A stretch of DNA of 64,000 nt from an uncultured Bacteroidota bacterium (GTDB taxonomy: Bacteria; Bacteroidota; Bacteroidia; Chitinophagales; Chitinophagaceae): contig CAIYTT010000231.1 of the NCBI GenBank assembly GCA_903929195.1, positions 1 through 64,000 of the forward strand, given 5' to 3'. Below are positions 9,512 to 46,995 of this stretch, one piece after another. The position numbers and the translations under genes were made by a program. The notes under the pieces were generated by a model. The model had not been told where the DNA came from. It did no database searches and saw only the letters and a program-made list of their open reading frames with translations. Position 1 is the first letter of the stretch; every line of letters starts with the position of its first letter.

Positions 9512-9712
9512 TACTCTTAAAGAATTTTTAAATTTATTCATTTCCAAAATATTGGAATTCAAATGGTTATGTAGCATACTTGAATATTCTGTATGATAAT
9601 TACATAATTTTCCTTGAATTTGAATAATGTTAAATTGTAGTTGTTATTATTTTTATTAATTCTAATGCCATTACCAATGGTGATTTATTTAATTTTAAAA
9701 AAAAATATTTAT

Positions 9713-12217
9713 ATGTATTTAAAAAACATTGCGTTATTTATTATATTTTCCTTGTTCTCCAATTCTATTTTTGCACAAAATCAACTTACAGGCAGAATAG
9801 TAAATAAAACAACTAACACACCAATAAAAGGTGCAATTATATATATTGAAGATTTAAAAACGGGGGCATCAAGTGATTCTAATGGAAACTATTCTATCAA
9901 AAACTTACCGGAGGGTACTTATGCAGTAGATGTTCATTATTTGGGTTATCAAGCAAAAGCATTACCTGTAAAAATAAAAGGTACTACAACAACCGATTTT
10001 TCGCTGAATGTAGCAGAATATGAAGAAAATGAGGTGGTAGTTACCGGTAGTTCTATGGCTATTGATATGGATAATTTACCACAATCTATAACCAGTGTGC
10101 CCAATAGTTATTTATTACAAAATGCATCTACAAATATTATAGATGCCATATCCAAAATACCGGGAGTATCGGGTATTACAGATGGGCAAAGTATATCTAA
10201 GCCAGTAATTAGAGGATTAGGATATAATAGGGTTGTTACCGTTAATGACGGTGTAAGGCAAGAAGGGCAGCAATGGGGAGATGAATTTGGTATTGAAATA
10301 GACCCAAATTCGGTAGATAGGGTAGAGATACTAAAAGGGCCGGCTTCTTTAATTTATGGTTCCGATGCTTTGTCCGGGGTTATTAATTTTTTGCCTGAAA
10401 AAACATTACCGGAAGGGGAATTTAAAGGAGATATTTTACTGAATTATCAAACAAATAATGGTTTGAATAATGCAGCGGCACACATTGCCGGTACAAAGAA
10501 TGGTATCAATTTTAGCGGAAGGTTTGATAATTCAATGGCACATGCCTATCAAAATAAAAATGACGGTTATGTACTCAATTCACAGTTCAGCAATATTAAC
10601 GGTGATGCAACAATAGGAATACATAAAAAGTGGGGTTTCTCACAATTACATTATAGTTATTTTGAATTAAAAACAGGAATTGTAGAAGGAGTAAGAGACA
10701 GCACGGGAGCGCAACAAAGGCAAACAGGGGTTGACAGTTTGGGTATGCCCATATATACTACTGCTACAGCAAGTGAATTAAAATCTTATACACCTTTTTT
10801 AATTCATCAAGATGTAAAGCATCAGAAATTAGTGTGGGATAATAGCTTTTCTATGGGTGAAGGCAGAATAATAGCACGATTAGCATGGCAACAAAATAGC
10901 CGTCAAGAAAACAATGACCCCTCAATTCCGGATATTTCCAATATTTGGTATTTTTTAAATTCGTATAATTATGACTTTCATTATGTTTCGGGTACAAAAA
11001 ATGATTTTGATTATAGTGCAGGTATAAACGGTATGTATCAAAATTCTAAAAACAAAGGAACACTTTTATTAATACCTGAATATGACCTATTTGATTTAGG
11101 TGCCTTTGCGATAGCAAATAAAAAAATAGGTAAATGGAACATTAGCGGTGGCATTAGATATGATATTCGTAAATTTAAAGGACATGATGATTATGTTGAT
11201 TCTAATGGAAATCAACTTGCATCAAATAACCCTAACGCAATACATCAATTTACGGCTTATAATTCTGATTTTACTGGAATATCGGGTAGTTTAGGTGCTG
11301 TATATCATGTTAATGACAATATTTATATTAAAGCAAACATGGCAAGGGGCTTTAGGGCTCCTAATGTTGCAGAATCGGGCTCTAATGGTATTCATGACGG
11401 TACGGTTGTATATGAAATTGGCGAACCTACTTTGAAACCGGAACAAAGTATAGAATTTGATTTTACACCCGGAATAAAAACAAAAGATTTTTCTGCCGAA
11501 CTAAGCATATTTTATAATAGCATAAATAATTTTATATATTCTAAACAATTATTAAGTTCTACAGATTCAACAAAAGGTCAAGATTCATTAAACAGCAGTA
11601 ATCCGGGTTTTCCGGATGCACCTGTGTTTAAATATTCGCAGGCAAATGCCGTACTCATGGGTTGCGAAGCAGTGTTAGATATTCATCCTGCGGGTTTAAA
11701 ATGGTTCGATTGGTACACAGCATTCAGTACCGTTGATGCACATTTATTAAATGTACCCGATTCAACAAGATATTTGCCATTTACTCCGCCGGCAAGATTG
11801 AGGTCTGAAATAACACTGAGTATTAAGAAATTAAGTAAAGTATTTAATAATTCATATTTAAGAGTAGGTACGTTATATAGTTTTCAACAAGCAAATATAT
11901 ACAATGCAAGCAGTATATACATGGGTTTAGCAGACCCTAATGAGCTGAAAGCAGCAACATCGCCAACAGCAGCTTATATGCTCATAAATGCAGGTTTAGG
12001 CAGCGATATTTTTGCGCACGGACATAAAGTATTTTCGGTTTATATTTCTGTAGATAATTTATTAGACAATGCCTATATGGATTATATGAGTCGATTTAAA
12101 TATTACCCTACAAACTATGGTAATGGTGTAAACAGAGTAGGAGTTTATAATATGGGAAGAAATGTAAGTTTTAAACTGATAGTACCTTTATATTTTAAAA
12201 AAGCAAAAATTAATTAA
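9713..12217 (+). CDS. TonB-dependent outer-membrane receptor
   Basis: Receptor of 834 residues from the ATG at 9713, which begins a clean signal peptide ending ...NSIFAQ. A carboxypeptidase-regulatory-like beta-sandwich follows (about 25-105: LTGRIVNKTTNTPIKGA... to LGYQAKALPV), then the plug (about 110-245, with DAISKIPGV, VIRGLGYNRV and VEILKGPASLIYGSDALSG), then a 22-strand-type barrel with the RGFRAPN and L.PE.S..FD signatures. It imports a large ligand across the outer membrane using TonB energy. The plug resembles siderophore/metal receptors rather than SusC, and no SusD partner follows. The substrate is not readable. The open frame starts upstream at 9641, but that start gives no signal peptide. 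Confidence 0.88.
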   Translation: MYLKNIALFIIFSLFSNSIFAQNQLTGRIVNKTTNTPIKGAIIYIEDLKTGASSDSNGNYSIKNLPEGTYAVDVHYLGYQAKALPVKIKGTTTTDFSLNVAEYEENEVVVTGSSMAIDMDNLPQSITSVPNSYLLQNASTNIIDAISKIPGVSGITDGQSISKPVIRGLGYNRVVTVNDGVRQEGQQWGDEFGIEIDPNSVDRVEILKGPASLIYGSDALSGVINFLPEKTLPEGEFKGDILLNYQTNNGLNNAAAHIAGTKNGINFSGRFDNSMAHAYQNKNDGYVLNSQFSNINGDATIGIHKKWGFSQLHYSYFELKTGIVEGVRDSTGAQQRQTGVDSLGMPIYTTATASELKSYTPFLIHQDVKHQKLVWDNSFSMGEGRIIARLAWQQNSRQENNDPSIPDISNIWYFLNSYNYDFHYVSGTKNDFDYSAGINGMYQNSKNKGTLLLIPEYDLFDLGAFAIANKKIGKWNISGGIRYDIRKFKGHDDYVDSNGNQLASNNPNAIHQFTAYNSDFTGISGSLGAVYHVNDNIYIKANMARGFRAPNVAESGSNGIHDGTVVYEIGEPTLKPEQSIEFDFTPGIKTKDFSAELSIFYNSINNFIYSKQLLSSTDSTKGQDSLNSSNPGFPDAPVFKYSQANAVLMGCEAVLDIHPAGLKWFDWYTAFSTVDAHLLNVPDSTRYLPFTPPARLRSEITLSIKKLSKVFNNSYLRVGTLYSFQQANIYNASSIYMGLADPNELKAATSPTAAYMLINAGLGSDIFAHGHKVFSVYISVDNLLDNAYMDYMSRFKYYPTNYGNGVNRVGVYNMGRNVSFKLIVPLYFKKAKIN

Positions 12218-40602: not shown

Positions 40603-41981
40603 AGGCTAAAATAAAGGATGTCTTAAAAAATATAATGGCAAATAAAATAGTTTTAGATACAAGAGATAAATTATTTTTAGGAATAATCATTTTTACCCAT
40701 TTATTTTTTTTATTATTAGCCTGCTATTTTAAAAAAATATACATGGGCGATTCATCCGAGTATATTTATGAGGCACTCAATATTAAAAATCTTTTCTTTT
40801 TCTATAGTGGTAATCCGGCAATGCCAATTGAGCCGGAACTGATGACCCAGCGGCAGCCCTTGTATCCTTTATTTTTATCTTATATTTATTTATTTAAAAT
40901 AAATAATTGGTTTGTTCTAATTATTCAAAATGTTCTATCAATATTTAATATCTTTTATTGCAGGAAAATAATTTTAAAATTTAATTTCAAAAAACAATAC
41001 GATTGGTTACTCTTACTTTTAATTATTACCTATCCGGCACAGTTTATTAATGCTAGTACAATTGCCCCGGATATTTTGTTGCAAACATTTACATTAATTT
41101 ATTTTGGTAGTTTTATTTCACTAATACAATTTAAACAACCCAAATATGCTATTGCAATGGGGTTTGCGCTTATTGCCGGTTTTATGGTTAAGCCGGTTTT
41201 GTATCCTTTTGTATTGTTGCATATTGTAATGCTTATAGTGTATGCAGTTTATAATAAACTAAAATTGCAAAGAATAGTAGTTATAGCATTAATACCATTA
41301 ATAGGAGTTTTGTTTTATAATTATTGGAATTATACAAGAACACAAAAATTTCATTTTTCAAGTAATCAGGCTTTTAATGCAATCTATTATTATTATCCAT
41401 TCATAAGTACTACTTATGGTGCTGATAGTGCCAATAAATTCCTTTTAAAGGAAAGGGCTATTATTGCCTCTATACCTCAATATAGATATAGATACGATTA
41501 TGCAAATGATAGAGGAATGCAACTATTACAGCAAAACTATATCGCTTATTTACTCTTTCATATTAAAAATAGTATTAGAATTTTTTTAGAACCGGGTAAA
41601 GGAGAATTGGATTTATTTACAGGTAAACTAACTTATAGCCAACTATACAGTAAAGAACAAGCCGGTTTTTATTACCTTATAAAGACCAAAGATTGGAGTG
41701 GTTTATTTAGATATTTTAAAACCAATTTTAGTATTATACCCGTATTTATTGTATTGCTATTTAATTGTTTGAGAACGATAGCTTTCGTTTACTTTTTCTT
41801 TAATAAAAACATGTCTTTTTTAGTACGTTTATTCTTATTTACCCTTGTCTCTTATTTTGCAATAGCTGCCGGACCAATAGCCAATACACGTTATTTTTTA
41901 CCGGTTTCTTTATTGGTTATTTTTGCTGCAACATTAAGTCTGTCTAACTTTGTTGAAAAAAGAAGAAGCAAACCGTTCTGA
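40599..41981 (+). CDS. GT39-like polytopic glycosyltransferase
   Basis: Membrane protein of 460 residues with about 10-11 hydrophobic segments. The first periplasmic loop has the acidic GDSSEYIYEA followed by TQRQPLYPLFLSYIY, the R.P.YP layout of the dolichyl-phosphate-mannose/ArnT-like GT-C enzymes, which take sugar from a polyprenyl-phosphate donor. The acceptor is unknown. The TTG at 40599 overlaps the prmC stop and implies coupling; an ATG at 40635 is the alternative start. Its stop codon lies within a hairpin that terminates the opposite strand. Confidence 0.65.
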   Translation: MKAKIKDVLKNIMANKIVLDTRDKLFLGIIIFTHLFFLLLACYFKKIYMGDSSEYIYEALNIKNLFFFYSGNPAMPIEPELMTQRQPLYPLFLSYIYLFKINNWFVLIIQNVLSIFNIFYCRKIILKFNFKKQYDWLLLLLIITYPAQFINASTIAPDILLQTFTLIYFGSFISLIQFKQPKYAIAMGFALIAGFMVKPVLYPFVLLHIVMLIVYAVYNKLKLQRIVVIALIPLIGVLFYNYWNYTRTQKFHFSSNQAFNAIYYYYPFISTTYGADSANKFLLKERAIIASIPQYRYRYDYANDRGMQLLQQNYIAYLLFHIKNSIRIFLEPGKGELDLFTGKLTYSQLYSKEQAGFYYLIKTKDWSGLFRYFKTNFSIIPVFIVLLFNCLRTIAFVYFFFNKNMSFLVRLFLFTLVSYFAIAAGPIANTRYFLPVSLLVIFAATLSLSNFVEKRRSKPF

Positions 41982-41992
41982 TTTGCTTCTTC
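41962..41992 (-). terminator. Hairpin terminator for the DUF5689/TonB operon
   Basis: Perfect 11-bp inverted repeat (41962-41972 and 41982-41992) with a 9-nt loop. On the minus strand the stem is followed by a run of T (41955-41960), so it terminates leftward transcription. It overlaps the last codons and stop of the plus-strand gene. Confidence 0.7.
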
Positions 41993-42016: not shown

Positions 42017-42844
42017 TTAGTAACACCTTGTTTGATTAAGTCTTACATCTGAAGTATCTCTAATCATAAACTGATTAGTAGAACCATATACGTTAAATAT
42101 ACCGGTAATACTTCCATACCCACTTGGCAACATGGCATTAAAGAAAGATGCATAACCACTATTATATAAAGTAATTTGTCCTGTTTTTGTACCACCAACA
42201 CAACCATCTAACGGTACAGAGGTACTGATAGCCACAGAACTTGGTTTTGCATAAGGTTGATTTAAAAATGAAGAGTCTATTTCTCCATCTACAATTGTAA
42301 TTAATTTATTTATATAAAGAGGTCCTTGTGCAATTAAATCAGACATTCTAACAGATTGTGGTGTAACTGTATGTGGGTAAGAAGCCTTTACAATAAATGA
42401 ATCTTGTAATGTTGGTGGTATTCCATTTACAGTTCCTGAACTGTTTAATGAATATACTATTTCAGGTGTACCTTTATAACAAACTAATGTTAAGTTTTTT
42501 AATTTGATATATACTTTTCTGCCAATCGGGTAATTACTATATAAATAAGTGTTGGCAATACCTATAGTAATACCACCGGTAGAGTCTTGTATTACAATTT
42601 GTTTGTAAAAGTTACCTGTACGGTCATCAGCTGTTACAATACCTGAAATGATGCTATCGCCTAATACAAAGGAATTATTTGTACCCAATACTAAAAATGA
42701 TAAATCTTTAATGTTTACATTTACGTTTAAATTTGGGTCAACGTTAGATAGGTCTCCCGGGTTATCATAAGTTTGCTTAATACAAGAACTTAATGAAAAA
42801 ATGCTAATGATTGTTGCAACTAAGGCAATATTTATATGTTTCAT
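42017..42844 (-). CDS. DUF5689 domain lipoprotein
   Basis: Lipoprotein of 275 residues. The signal peptide ends in the lipobox LSSC with C21. After a linker comes a DUF5689 domain (about 45-250), with the family's ISGIVTADDRTGNFYKQIVIQDSTGGI opening, an OB-fold-like arrangement. It lies 24 nt downstream of a TonB-dependent receptor gene on the same strand. Such pairs in Bacteroidota usually act together at the cell surface, the lipoprotein capturing material for the receptor. Nuclease-linked OB-fold domains fit the divergent EEP nuclease nearby. Its function is inferred from context. Confidence 0.75.
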   Translation of the reverse strand: MKHINIALVATIISIFSLSSCIKQTYDNPGDLSNVDPNLNVNVNIKDLSFLVLGTNNSFVLGDSIISGIVTADDRTGNFYKQIVIQDSTGGITIGIANTYLYSNYPIGRKVYIKLKNLTLVCYKGTPEIVYSLNSSGTVNGIPPTLQDSFIVKASYPHTVTPQSVRMSDLIAQGPLYINKLITIVDGEIDSSFLNQPYAKPSSVAISTSVPLDGCVGGTKTGQITLYNSGYASFFNAMLPSGYGSITGIFNVYGSTNQFMIRDTSDVRLNQTRCY

Positions 42845-42868
42845 ATTTAAAATTTAATGTTTGTTTTA

Positions 42869-45685
42869 TTAAAAGCGTAGAGTAATATTTACAAAATAAT
42901 TAATTCCATATCCGTATTGGTAAACAGTTGGAAATTTGCCTACAATATGATTGGTATAGTCGTAACGTAATTGTTCGTATCCTCTTGTAATTACATTGGT
43001 ATTATTCAATAAATTACCAATACCTCCGTTTATATATAGATTCGTGTTATTACCTGATATTTTCTTAACCATTTTAGACATTCTGGATAATTGTATTGAT
43101 TTACCGAAATGTAAATCTACCGTAAATGCAGCAGGAAGTTTTTCTTGGTCAACAACATTATTATAATTAGTAGTACCTGTTTGATAAAAACCTACTGCAT
43201 CTAATGTGCGTCTATTAGGATTTATTTGAACATAATTTCTATCTAAATAATTGAAGTTTAAATTTCCATACCAACCTTTTAGCCTGTAATTTACACCTGC
43301 AGTATATGCAGATTGTGGTCCTACAGCTAAATTATAATTTTGAATATAGGCTTTTGTTGGTATAGCATGTTGAGTTGTATCATTATCTAAATAAACACTA
43401 ATATCGGGTCTGTTAGAATAGATAGCCTGTCCAACTGCTGCAACTCCAGTAAGGCTTAATGCCGCAGTTACTTTTACATCTACCATTAATTCTGTACCTA
43501 TAGAACTAATATTTTCGTGCTGCATTGCATAGTTTACAAATGTATAAAATGCAGGGTCGTCATTATAGAATCTTTTTATTTCTGATGCATCAGTAACATT
43601 ATTAACATAGCCGACTGCTCTTGCACTTATCTTTTGAGACTTTAAAAGGTAACCACCTTCTAAACTCATATTTTTTTGTACAGTAGGGTTACTAACTGTA
43701 AAGTCTCTCGTTTCAGCAGAAATATAGGTATTATCAGCCGTAGGTGGAGTAGTAGTATAAGCTGCATTTAAGAATAGGAAATTTCTACCATTAATTTTAT
43801 AGGTTGCACCACCTTTAAAACCATAATTTAAAAAGTTTTGTATAGAACTTGCACCGGCAGAATTATTGGCAAACAAACCGTTTTTGAAATAACCATATCT
43901 GCTAAATGAATAATCACCTGCAATAATTGATGCAAAGAAATCAAATTTATCATAGTTAAATACTGCTTGTCCCCAGGCAAAAGCATTATTTATACGTATA
44001 GAGTAATCATAACCATATTTATCACCTACTTTTACTAGCGGGTTAGTATTATTTAAATTGTTATAATTATAACTTGGCACTACAACAGCTTGTTGCGATG
44101 CAAACTGATTAAAATTTACAAAGAAATCACCACCCATTAAATCGGATAATTGTTTGTAAATTTCTGTACTTTGAGATAATAAGGTTGCACCTCCATAAAC
44201 GGTAACGTGTTCATTTACAGAATGTTCAATATTTGTATTAAAAGTGAATTTTTTAAGGTCATTTACTTTATTTGCTTCCACATAAAGCGATTGTTTGCCG
44301 GTAGCAACTAAAGCATTATTAATGTTATATACATTCTGAATGTTATTATAGTTAGAATTATATAAGTTATCCCAATTAATTTGTAACGCGTCAGGATTGT
44401 TCATTATGGCTTGCTTTAATGCATTCCCAATTGCTGTTTGCGGCGGCACCATTGTGTAATAATAACTTGGCAAGTTTTTATAATAGTTGCCATAAGGACT
44501 TCCTGCATTGTAGTAATCTAAATTAGATGTTTTGTCAATACCATTTTGGAATCCAATTGCTGTATTCCATCTTGTTTTGTCTGAAGGATTGTATTCATAG
44601 TTTAAAATGTAGATTGGTTGGAAAATATTTTGTATTCTTGAATCACGCACCTGTCCTTTTTGATAACCCCATAAAGGATTATAAAAATTGTTATTGGCTA
44701 AGTTATATACTTCCTGTGTCGCTGTACCAGCTTTACCTTGTATGGTAGGTACGCCAACAGTTGTAAAATTAAATTGACTTTTTCCAATAACTTTACTTAC
44801 AGATGCAAAATAAGCATATCCGTCAAAGAAAGTTCCGGGTCTATAACTCTGGTCTGCCCATCTTTTAGATGCAGAAATAGTATATGCCCATCCTTTTTTT
44901 GAAAGTCCGCTGTTTTCAGTTACCATTATTCTATTGCGGTAGGTTCTATCAGCATTGGTGTAAGTAACACTTGTCCCTTTTCTTTGGTCGGCAGCTGATG
45001 CGGCTATGTAGGTAGAACCACCTAAACCACCGAAAGTATATGCAGAGGGTGCAAGACCATATTTTATATTTCTGTCATGAAAAACATCATTAAGGTCTCC
45101 TAATTGTTGTCCCCAAGATGCATTACCTGTTTCTGCATTATTAATAGGTATACCGTTTACTTCAATTTCACTTTGATTTCTGGCACCTCTCGGTTGAAAC
45201 GAGTAAGCCCCGAAAATATAAGCTGCAGTATATACAAATGGGTCTCTATTTGCTGCAAGTAAACCTGCACTATTTGTAATTACTCCGTCATCATCCGAAC
45301 TGGATGAGTTTTCGTCTATAGCTATTGTAGGTATTTCAATACTTTGTACCGATGTATTTTCATCATTGGGTGTAATCATTTGTTCGCCAATATCTAACAC
45401 ATCCTTATCTAAATTAACAGAAATGGTATCAGCAAAAATGCTATTGCCAGCAACAATAAGCGTTTGATTACCATAAGGTACTTCACTAAACATAAATTCG
45501 CCATCCCCGTCAGACGAGGTAAATACATTTAATCCGTTTATGATAATTTTTAAGTCATTATAAGCAGCTTTGGTAATCTTATTTATTAATTTACCTTTTA
45601 TCATACCGGTTTTTTTGCCTGTCTGCCCAAAGGAAATTGCGGGTATTGTTATAATGAATAATATAATATAAAGTAGCCTGCGCAT
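42869..45685 (-). CDS. TonB-dependent receptor paired with DUF5689 lipoprotein
   Basis: Outer-membrane protein of 938 residues with a signal peptide ending ISFGQ. A carboxypeptidase-regulatory-like domain follows (about 26-100: MIKGKLINKITKAAYNDL...), then an acidic linker (SSSSDDDG), a plug-like part with FGAYSFQPRGARNQSEIEVNGIPINN, and a long barrel rich in Tyr and Asn ending in the aromatic NITLRF. The plug lacks the usual LKGP motif, as in the DUF5689-associated receptor group. It should import a product bound by the adjoining lipoprotein. The divergent EEP nuclease suggests nucleic acid or phosphate-ester use. The promoter box is at 45725-45732. Confidence 0.85.
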   Translation of the reverse strand: MRRLLYIILFIITIPAISFGQTGKKTGMIKGKLINKITKAAYNDLKIIINGLNVFTSSDGDGEFMFSEVPYGNQTLIVAGNSIFADTISVNLDKDVLDIGEQMITPNDENTSVQSIEIPTIAIDENSSSSDDDGVITNSAGLLAANRDPFVYTAAYIFGAYSFQPRGARNQSEIEVNGIPINNAETGNASWGQQLGDLNDVFHDRNIKYGLAPSAYTFGGLGGSTYIAASAADQRKGTSVTYTNADRTYRNRIMVTENSGLSKKGWAYTISASKRWADQSYRPGTFFDGYAYFASVSKVIGKSQFNFTTVGVPTIQGKAGTATQEVYNLANNNFYNPLWGYQKGQVRDSRIQNIFQPIYILNYEYNPSDKTRWNTAIGFQNGIDKTSNLDYYNAGSPYGNYYKNLPSYYYTMVPPQTAIGNALKQAIMNNPDALQINWDNLYNSNYNNIQNVYNINNALVATGKQSLYVEANKVNDLKKFTFNTNIEHSVNEHVTVYGGATLLSQSTEIYKQLSDLMGGDFFVNFNQFASQQAVVVPSYNYNNLNNTNPLVKVGDKYGYDYSIRINNAFAWGQAVFNYDKFDFFASIIAGDYSFSRYGYFKNGLFANNSAGASSIQNFLNYGFKGGATYKINGRNFLFLNAAYTTTPPTADNTYISAETRDFTVSNPTVQKNMSLEGGYLLKSQKISARAVGYVNNVTDASEIKRFYNDDPAFYTFVNYAMQHENISSIGTELMVDVKVTAALSLTGVAAVGQAIYSNRPDISVYLDNDTTQHAIPTKAYIQNYNLAVGPQSAYTAGVNYRLKGWYGNLNFNYLDRNYVQINPNRRTLDAVGFYQTGTTNYNNVVDQEKLPAAFTVDLHFGKSIQLSRMSKMVKKISGNNTNLYINGGIGNLLNNTNVITRGYEQLRYDYTNHIVGKFPTVYQYGYGINYFVNITLRF

Positions 45686-45724
45686 AGTTGTAAACTAATT
45701 GTTATGTGTAATTATTTCAAAGTG

Positions 45725-45732
45725 CAAACATA
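45725..45732 (-). promoter_or_regulatory. Promoter -7 element of the TonB receptor operon
   Basis: TATGTTTG on the minus strand, 39 nt before the ATG at 45685, in the gap shared with the divergent nuclease gene. Confidence 0.45.
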
Positions 45733-45876
45733 GTTAGTGAATGCTCTCAAAAAGGTATTTCAATATTAATTTATTATTAAGCCTTGCTTATTTGAGCTTT
45801 TTATTGCGTTTAATTTTAATGTTTGTCGCTGTTTTTAAATCTTTTTGTTACAATTTTGCACAAAATACATATATAT

Positions 45877-46914
45877 ATGATTAAAAAAATAAACTTTATT
45901 ATCGTTATTTTACTACTAAATTTTACCTCTTTTGCCCAAAAAGAATTTAAAATAATGGCAATTGGTTTTTATAATTGTGAGAACTTCTTTGATACCATAC
46001 ACGATACAGCAAAAAAAGATGAAGATTTTACACCAAATGGTAGCTTTCATTACACAGAAGAAATATATAAACAAAAATTACATAATATAGCTACTGTAAT
46101 AAAAGAAATGGGTACCGATTTTACTCCGGATGGTCCGGCTATTTTAGGTATGGCAGAAGTGGAAAATGATAAAGTATTAAATGACTTGATTGCACAACCT
46201 GAAATTAAAAGCAGAAATTATAAATACGTATGGTTTTATACACCTGATGAAAGAGGCATCAGTACTGCCATGTTATATAACCCAAAATATTTAACTGTTT
46301 TAAAAGCTGAACCTTTGCATGTGCCATTAGAAACGGTGAAACAAAAAAGACCTACCCGTTTTGTTTTGCATATTAGTGGTGTGCTTGCAGGCGATACAGT
46401 ACACATATTAGTAAATCACTGGCCATCAAGAACAGGCGGTGAAGCCACTACTAGACCCTATCGTGCAGTTGCAGCAGGTGTTGATAAACGTATAGTAGAT
46501 TCATTATTAGGTTTGAACCCGAGTACAAAAATATTGATAATGGGCGATTTAAACGATAACCCTACCGACCCAAGCGTTACAGAAGTACTTGAGGCAAAAG
46601 CTAATAAAGATAAAGTAGATTTAACTGACATCTATAATCCATGGATAAATATCTACAAGAAAGGTATTGGTACAGAAAATTATAATAATGAATGGAATTT
46701 AATAGACCAGATAATGGTATCAGGGGCTTTCTTGAAAAATGATAATAACAAATGGAAATTTTATAAAAATGAGATTTTTAATAGAAGCTTTTTAATTAAT
46801 AAATTAGGACATAGTAAGGGATTACCACATCGTTCTTTTACCGCAGCCCATGTGTGGGATAATGGTTACAGCGACCATTTTCCGGTATTAATCTATCTTG
46901 TGGAAAAGAAATAA
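45877..46914 (+). CDS. Secreted endonuclease/exonuclease/phosphatase family enzyme
   Basis: Protein of 345 residues from the ATG at 45877, which begins a signal peptide ending TSFAQ. The EEP (DNase I-like) active-site motifs are all present: the N of YNCENFFD, the metal glutamate in AEVENDKV, the histidine of VNHWPSR, GDLNDNPTD, and the C-terminal YSDHFPV. The family cleaves phosphodiesters or phosphomonoesters of nucleic acids, lipids or inositol phosphates; the secreted Bacteroidota members are often near TonB/DUF5689 pairs, as here. The longer frame from a TTG at 45823 would bury the signal peptide. A strong hairpin terminator follows. Confidence 0.85.
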   Translation: MIKKINFIIVILLLNFTSFAQKEFKIMAIGFYNCENFFDTIHDTAKKDEDFTPNGSFHYTEEIYKQKLHNIATVIKEMGTDFTPDGPAILGMAEVENDKVLNDLIAQPEIKSRNYKYVWFYTPDERGISTAMLYNPKYLTVLKAEPLHVPLETVKQKRPTRFVLHISGVLAGDTVHILVNHWPSRTGGEATTRPYRAVAAGVDKRIVDSLLGLNPSTKILIMGDLNDNPTDPSVTEVLEAKANKDKVDLTDIYNPWINIYKKGIGTENYNNEWNLIDQIMVSGAFLKNDNNKWKFYKNEIFNRSFLINKLGHSKGLPHRSFTAAHVWDNGYSDHFPVLIYLVEKK

Positions 46915-46943: not shown

Positions 46944-46995
46944 GATAGTGTTTATACTGTAATTTAGTTTACAGTATAAGCACTATCCATTTTTT
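46944..46995 (+). terminator. Rho-independent terminator
   Basis: A 19-bp stem with one G-T pair (46944-46962 and 46969-46987) and a 6-nt loop is followed by CATTTTTTT, 30 bp after the nuclease stop. Confidence 0.85.

Follow-up and report, generated by a model that had tools for sequence, protein, structure and literature searches.

What do a TonB-dependent outer-membrane transporter, a DUF5689 lipoprotein and a secreted enzyme of the endonuclease/exonuclease/phosphatase (EEP) family do together when their genes lie side by side? Such a locus is found in the window analysed here, i.e. the whole stretch of 64,000 nucleotides (contig CAIYTT010000231.1 of assembly GCA_903929195.1) from an uncultured Bacteroidota bacterium of the family Chitinophagaceae. 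A first-pass annotation, made from the sequence alone, took the locus for a system that scavenges nucleic acids or other phosphate esters. Here, a different purpose is favoured: the locus is probably a TonB-linked outer-membrane DNA-import module serving natural transformation, a reading to which we give a probability of about 0.6.

Table 1. Features of the locus, in window coordinates.
Feature	Position	Strand	Description
Intrinsic-terminator-like hairpin after DUF5689 gene	41962..41992	-	
DUF5689 lipoprotein gene	42017..42844	-	275 aa; DUF5689 domain only; tandem OB fold (model)
TonB-dependent transporter gene	42869..45685	-	938 aa: N-terminal hydrophobic helix, CarboxypepD_reg-like domain, acidic linker, plug, barrel
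Acidic linker of transporter, between CarboxypepD_reg-like domain and plug	45263..45373	-	SSSSDDDG at 45284-45307
Divergent intergenic region between transporter and EEP genes	45686..45876	.	191 bp
Secreted EEP enzyme gene (PF19580)	45877..46914	+	345 aa from ATG
Intrinsic-terminator-like hairpin after EEP gene	46944..46987	+	19 pairs

The three open reading frames were found where the first-pass annotation had placed them, and the arrangement that it described, a lipoprotein–transporter operon with the EEP gene divergent at less than 200 bp, was recovered as well (Table 1). The transporter gene is 24 bp upstream of the DUF5689 gene on the same strand, and the two apparently form one operon. 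The divergent gap comes to 191 bp because the EEP start is taken as ATG 45877, which is more likely than TTG 45823. Terminator-like hairpins close both transcription units, on the DUF5689 side and on the EEP side. Elsewhere in the window there is a second TonB-dependent transporter open reading frame (9641-12217, plus strand, 858 aa), which is only distantly related.

Pfam gives just two matches for the transporter, both of CarboxypepD_reg type and both sub-threshold, and comparison of its sequence with solved structures yields matches to the N-terminal domain and a weak match to OprC, and nothing else. Its identification as a TonB receptor was nevertheless borne out by an AlphaFold model (mean pLDDT 81, from 47 aligned sequences), which matches BtuB with a Z of 28.3 (502 residues, 3.1 Å) and YncD with a Z of 28.1. 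As modelled, the 938-aa protein has the fold of a TonB-dependent transporter, with plug and barrel; its C-terminal residue is Phe. The LKGP plug motif is absent, as had been pointed out earlier, and this means merely that the protein is not a typical SusC. A SusC/SusD nutrient system was considered and rejected: in addition to the missing LKGP, the transporter has no NCBIfam match up to E 1 and its DUF5689 partner has no SusD match. The SSSSDDDG linker had been called unusual, which it is not, since the region contains 4-12 acidic and at most two basic residues in all 47 aligned sequences, the window included. Judging from this alignment, the acidic linker appears to be a hallmark of the family, and it is possibly the TonB-box region. 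Some orthologues (L033, L034, L035, L043 and several in the class genomes) seem by eye to lack the N-terminal CarboxypepD_reg-like domain, their matches beginning near position 107-123.

The lipoprotein matches PF18942 at 6e-51, above the Pfam cut-off, and is the one such protein found in its own genome. Cys21, which by eye lies within an LSSC lipobox, is invariant in 42/42 aligned sequences. The C-terminal part that is common to most aligned relatives is missing, as the protein stops after DUF5689: no DUF5017 or choice-of-anchor J part is found C-terminally in its 275 aa. A DUF5689 protein of another genome (G150) is likewise short, at 282 aa. On the NCBIfam model NF052645 (lipo_M949_1556) the window lipoprotein scores 99.5 bits, below the 475-bit cut-off, in an alignment that takes in most of the protein and spans positions 6-280 of the 457 in the profile. 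At three loci (L035, L043 and L086) the lipoprotein in this place carries a pair of DUF5689 domains instead of the single one of the window. DUF5689 was also tried as a marker at the level of the whole family and discarded, with weak matches, often in large proteins, in 92 of 198 genomes of the phylum and matches in the control genomes of B. subtilis and Bacteroides ihuae.

No match to solved structures was found with the lipoprotein sequence up to E 1. The model (mean pLDDT 90) has a tandem OB fold, and Foldseek ranks HIN-200 DNA-sensor domains first among its matches, from E 6.6e-5 and with low TM-scores of ~0.3-0.4. When re-aligned by VIA, the first OB domain matches lysyl-tRNA synthetase (Z up to 9.9), RPA and HIN-200 domains, and the second matches CST and MCM OB domains. 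With VIA Z values modestly above background, these matches to a predicted structure speak for fold and not for function. An OB fold does not imply nucleic-acid binding, and the protein is not basic (17 K+R against 17 D+E). A separate line comes from a more distant type of DUF5689, which in 4/10 proteins scanned is fused to nuclease domains, namely EEP (L069, L070), Endonuclease_1 (L065) and PLDc (L061). The fused proteins also bear a Por_Secre_tail secretion domain. Such domain architectures are an independent tie between DUF5689 and nucleic acids.

The third protein matches PF19580 (Exo_endo_phos_3) at 2e-100 with 336 bits, against a cut-off of 27. All 35 aligned sequences share its ten candidate catalytic residues, and a signal peptide is recognisable by eye, all in keeping with the secreted EEP family enzyme that had been annotated. 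Its sequence has no match among solved structures up to E 0.01, and on the ExeM/NucH model NF033681 it reaches 26.4 bits, far under the 300-bit cut-off. At some loci an additional EEP gene is located downstream of DUF5689 (L097:11724-12737, L110:11306-12277, L149:12927-13895 and similar); in the three second copies that were aligned no signal peptide is recognisable by eye, and genes of this kind group in a clade of their own.

The first-pass annotation staked its proposal on the three genes being found together elsewhere in the Bacteroidota, and they are. For 149 genomes drawn evenly from the class, the window's own included, thresholds of 600 bits for the transporter and 115 bits for DUF5689 were chosen after viewing the gaps in the score lists. 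The transporter exceeds its threshold in 29/149 genomes (next value 238), and the genomes in which DUF5689 exceeds its own are the very same 29 (next genome 65); six transporter candidates were scored per genome, and single misses are possible. These 29 genomes span 15 families. Neither gene is found above those thresholds in the other 120, among which weaker matches occur in 42 for the transporter and 22 for DUF5689. The two genes are adjacent in 27/29, and of the exceptions one (G281) resembles a contig break while the other (G017) has all three genes apart. An EEP of the PF19580 family is present in 29/29 of these trio genomes compared with 55/120 of the others (Fisher 5e-9, uncorrected for kinship). 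It lies within 4 kb of the pair in 22, in four placements: upstream divergent (14), downstream on the opposite strand (5), upstream on the same strand (2) and downstream on the same strand (1). In the remaining seven it is more than 4 kb away or on another contig.

Two further samples gave a similar picture. At 27 loci picked for strong DUF5689 matches, the transporter is next upstream in 26 and a divergent EEP is present in 17. A scan with the transporter alignment returned at least 589 confirmed matches, of which the best 80, mostly from Flavobacteriaceae and Weeksellaceae, were kept; among these best 80 of at least 589 loci, DUF5689 is the next gene, on the same strand and within 0.7 kb, in 80/80, and there is a divergent EEP in 68/80. 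Two of the 12 loci without one (L118, L133) have no upstream sequence and nine of the other ten are titled Flavobacterium, so that the EEP is missing beside the transporter in 10 of the 78 loci where upstream sequence exists. The three-gene arrangement is conserved far above chance. At seven loci of Flavobacteriaceae (L097, L101, L111, L123, L130, L132 and L149) a paralogous transporter is seen ~0.6-2.8 kb past the trio EEP, and the six of these that are in the transporter tree (all but L132) fall outside the clade of the window.

In that tree, the window transporter lies within a clade of 32 together with titled orthologues, Weeksellaceae loci included (98/100). It stands beside its own family and order, with a long branch and an odd composition, a position that fits vertical descent. 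A tree of 79 EEPs places the 48 trio EEPs on one side of a moderately supported branch (89/81). These 48 include four of the seven unlinked EEPs (G017, G037, G215 and G252; the remaining three are not in the tree), and the same side also holds two second copies and two EEPs from genomes without a DUF5689 match (G134 and G087). On the opposite side are 20 EEPs from trio-less class genomes (20 of 55 were included) and seven second copies. The topology suggests that one EEP subclade goes with the transporter–DUF5689 pair even if unlinked. One of the DUF5689-less genomes, G134 (L060, family f5), has a trio-type EEP, no DUF5689 match and, in the one stretch looked at for it, only a transporter of the other clade; this is perhaps a natural loss of the pair.

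The function of such a pair has been studied in Riemerella anatipestifer. According to the available part of that study (PMC8459023), RA0C_RS04915 is a CarboxypepD_reg outer-membrane protein and RA0C_RS04920 has DUF5689 plus DUF5017. Markerless deletion of either gene brings transformation below the detection limit (<4.2e-10, compared with 5.4e-5 in the wild type), and an insertion in RS04915 silences the downstream RS04920, which points to one transcription unit with the gene order of the window. The authors propose that RS04920 binds DNA and that DNA passes the outer membrane via RS04915. It is because each gene of this pair is essential for natural transformation that the locus in the window is read in the same way. 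The bridge between the two goes via the NCBIfam family M949_1556, which is named after an R. anatipestifer gene: two Weeksellaceae-type DUF5689 proteins encoded next to the transporter reach 717 and 753 bits on its model, against a cut-off of 475. By this indirect route, through the family and the shared transporter clade, the window pair may be orthologous to RA0C_RS04915/RS04920. The window has the same succession, an outer-membrane transporter with a CarboxypepD_reg domain (below the Pfam cut-off) and then a DUF5689 gene. It differs in that its organism belongs to the same class as Flavobacterium and to a different order, in that its lipoprotein is DUF5689 only, and in having the EEP gene, no such nuclease being named in the available text of PMC8459023.

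That text also gives 65.9% for a homologue of RS04915 in Chryseobacterium and describes homologues as 'widely distributed in the Bacteroidetes', yet RS04915 as 'only found in Flavobacteriaceae', whereas the high-scoring transporters found here reach 15 families. F. johnsoniae, in which homologues are present, is reported as non-competent under the authors' conditions (PMC8459023). As for energy, loss of tonBA lowers transformation of R. anatipestifer with no iron defect, and even in a triple tonB mutant transformation is lowered and not abolished, so the dependence on TonB is not strict in that species, as far as the accessible part of PMC8383284 goes.

For the window, the following sequence of steps is proposed. 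The tandem-OB lipoprotein, at the cell surface, would bind extracellular DNA and pass it to the transporter, and the transporter would move it to the periplasm with TonB energy, replacing a type IV pilus. The EEP enzyme would then process the DNA, in the periplasm or at the surface, by nicking it or by stripping off one strand, and so supply ComEC and DprA. What we infer is the orthology to the R. anatipestifer genes, the binding of DNA, its passage through the barrel and the part played by the EEP. The EEP role is the weakest step, and its odds seem to us a little short of even. That such loci are self-contained machines for TonB-powered, pilus-free import of double-stranded DNA via a TonB-dependent barrel in many Bacteroidota, with the EEP as the dedicated nuclease making the single strand for ComEC, is a bolder idea and is offered tentatively, as clearly less probable than its opposite.

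The genes further down this route are present in the own genome, which has ComEC (an ORF of 700 aa), DprA and an HhH protein of 158 aa in whose N-terminal part a hydrophobic stretch is seen by eye. The latter is the one HHH_3 match in the genome, compared with three helix-hairpin-helix domains in RA0C_RS02645 of R. anatipestifer, and the ComEC of that species, RS04895, is close to the pair by locus-tag number only (PMC8459023, available part). As discriminating markers, ComEC (145/149 class genomes), DprA (144/149) and HHH_3 (149/149) were set aside as near-universal and so uninformative. Secretin as an inverse marker fared no better, being found in 6/29 trio genomes compared with 19/120 others, with no clear association.

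A variant of the transformation reading concerns the third gene only, and its odds overlap those of the other readings. Here the EEP would degrade DNA outside the cell or in the periplasm, limiting uptake or recycling unused DNA. No EEP-type gene is in the available hit list of the R. anatipestifer screen, which gave 16 insertion genes among 3,000 mutants (PMC8459023), and the EEP is unlinked in 7/29 trio genomes and, at a group of Flavobacterium loci, is not found next to the transporter, as this variant would have it. The presence of an EEP in all 29 trio genomes, linked in 22, argues for coupling to the pair, but does not give its sign. We regard the variant as somewhat unlikely.

The scavenging purpose we consider unlikely. 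In this case the same proteins would capture, cut and import DNA or RNA for phosphate, nitrogen or nucleosides, or DNA would be mainly food. The capture, cutting and TonB-driven import envisaged by the first-pass annotation do agree with a conserved trio suited to nucleic acid, in which a secreted nuclease-type enzyme, a TonB-dependent transporter and an OB-fold lipoprotein occur together; the fusions of distant DUF5689 to nuclease and Por_Secre_tail domains would suit it as well. It is the nutrient or phosphate purpose that found no support. The further neighbours of the trio differ between genera. Of 387 neighbour clusters, 20 representatives of recurrent ones were scanned; one is a second EEP copy and two have no Pfam match, and the others are Rho, superoxide dismutase, an HflX-type GTPase, 3-hydroxyanthranilate dioxygenase, phosphoglucose isomerase and similar. 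With the EEP copy set aside, the 19 remaining representatives of recurrent neighbours include no gene of phosphate transport, no phosphatase and no competence gene. The closest relatives tested by genetics act in transformation, which deletion of the two-gene core abolishes in R. anatipestifer (PMC8459023, available part). Phosphate in the medium does affect transformation of that species, but its removal lowers transformation, unlike what is expected of a starvation-induced scavenger (PMC8383284, accessible part). The last alternative, in which the pair imports another ligand, the transformation loss in R. anatipestifer is an indirect envelope or LPS effect and the EEP is a separate phosphoesterase, draws on M949_1556 being cited as affecting LPS, antigenicity and pathogenicity (PMC4976936 and PMC12566107, accessible parts), but is improbable in view of clean deletions that put transformation below detection (PMC8459023), the tandem OB fold, the nuclease fusions and the EEP subclade that accompanies the pair even when unlinked.

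Among known systems, BtuB-BtuG takes vitamin B12 and not DNA as its ligand and, to our knowledge, BtuG is not a DUF5689 or OB protein. What it shares with the window is the combination of a TonB-dependent barrel of the same fold with a surface lipoprotein (8blw, 8bmx). Uptake by type IV pilus, PilQ and ComEA in other Gram-negatives likewise delivers double-stranded DNA into the periplasm for use by ComEC, whereas no secretin was found in the own genome of the window and TonB energy would replace pilus retraction. The extracellular nucleases ExeM/NucH share the EEP catalytic domain, which the window enzyme matches weakly; in contrast to them, the latter is a separate small secreted PF19580 protein. 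The R. anatipestifer pair is the nearest case, and what was already known from it is that the two genes serve transformation in one species, with homologues noted widely in the Bacteroidetes (PMC8459023, available part). In the literature covered, with preprints and most subscription journals outside its scope, no further paper on these genes as DNA uptake was found, and none tying an EEP nuclease to them. What the present analysis adds is that the pair co-occurs exactly, over 15 families, that DUF5689 is read as an OB fold, and that the EEP is a conserved third part. A dedicated nuclease partner of a known kind of system seems to be new.

The locus bears on how DNA crosses the outer membrane in Bacteroidota without type IV pili, and on which nuclease makes periplasmic single-stranded DNA in Gram-negatives, a step that the R. 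anatipestifer authors themselves name as unknown (PMC8459023, available part). In 15 families of the class, it links a type of transporter pair that is essential for transformation with one particular subfamily of nucleases. This suggests that more members of the phylum may be capable of natural transformation than has been reported.
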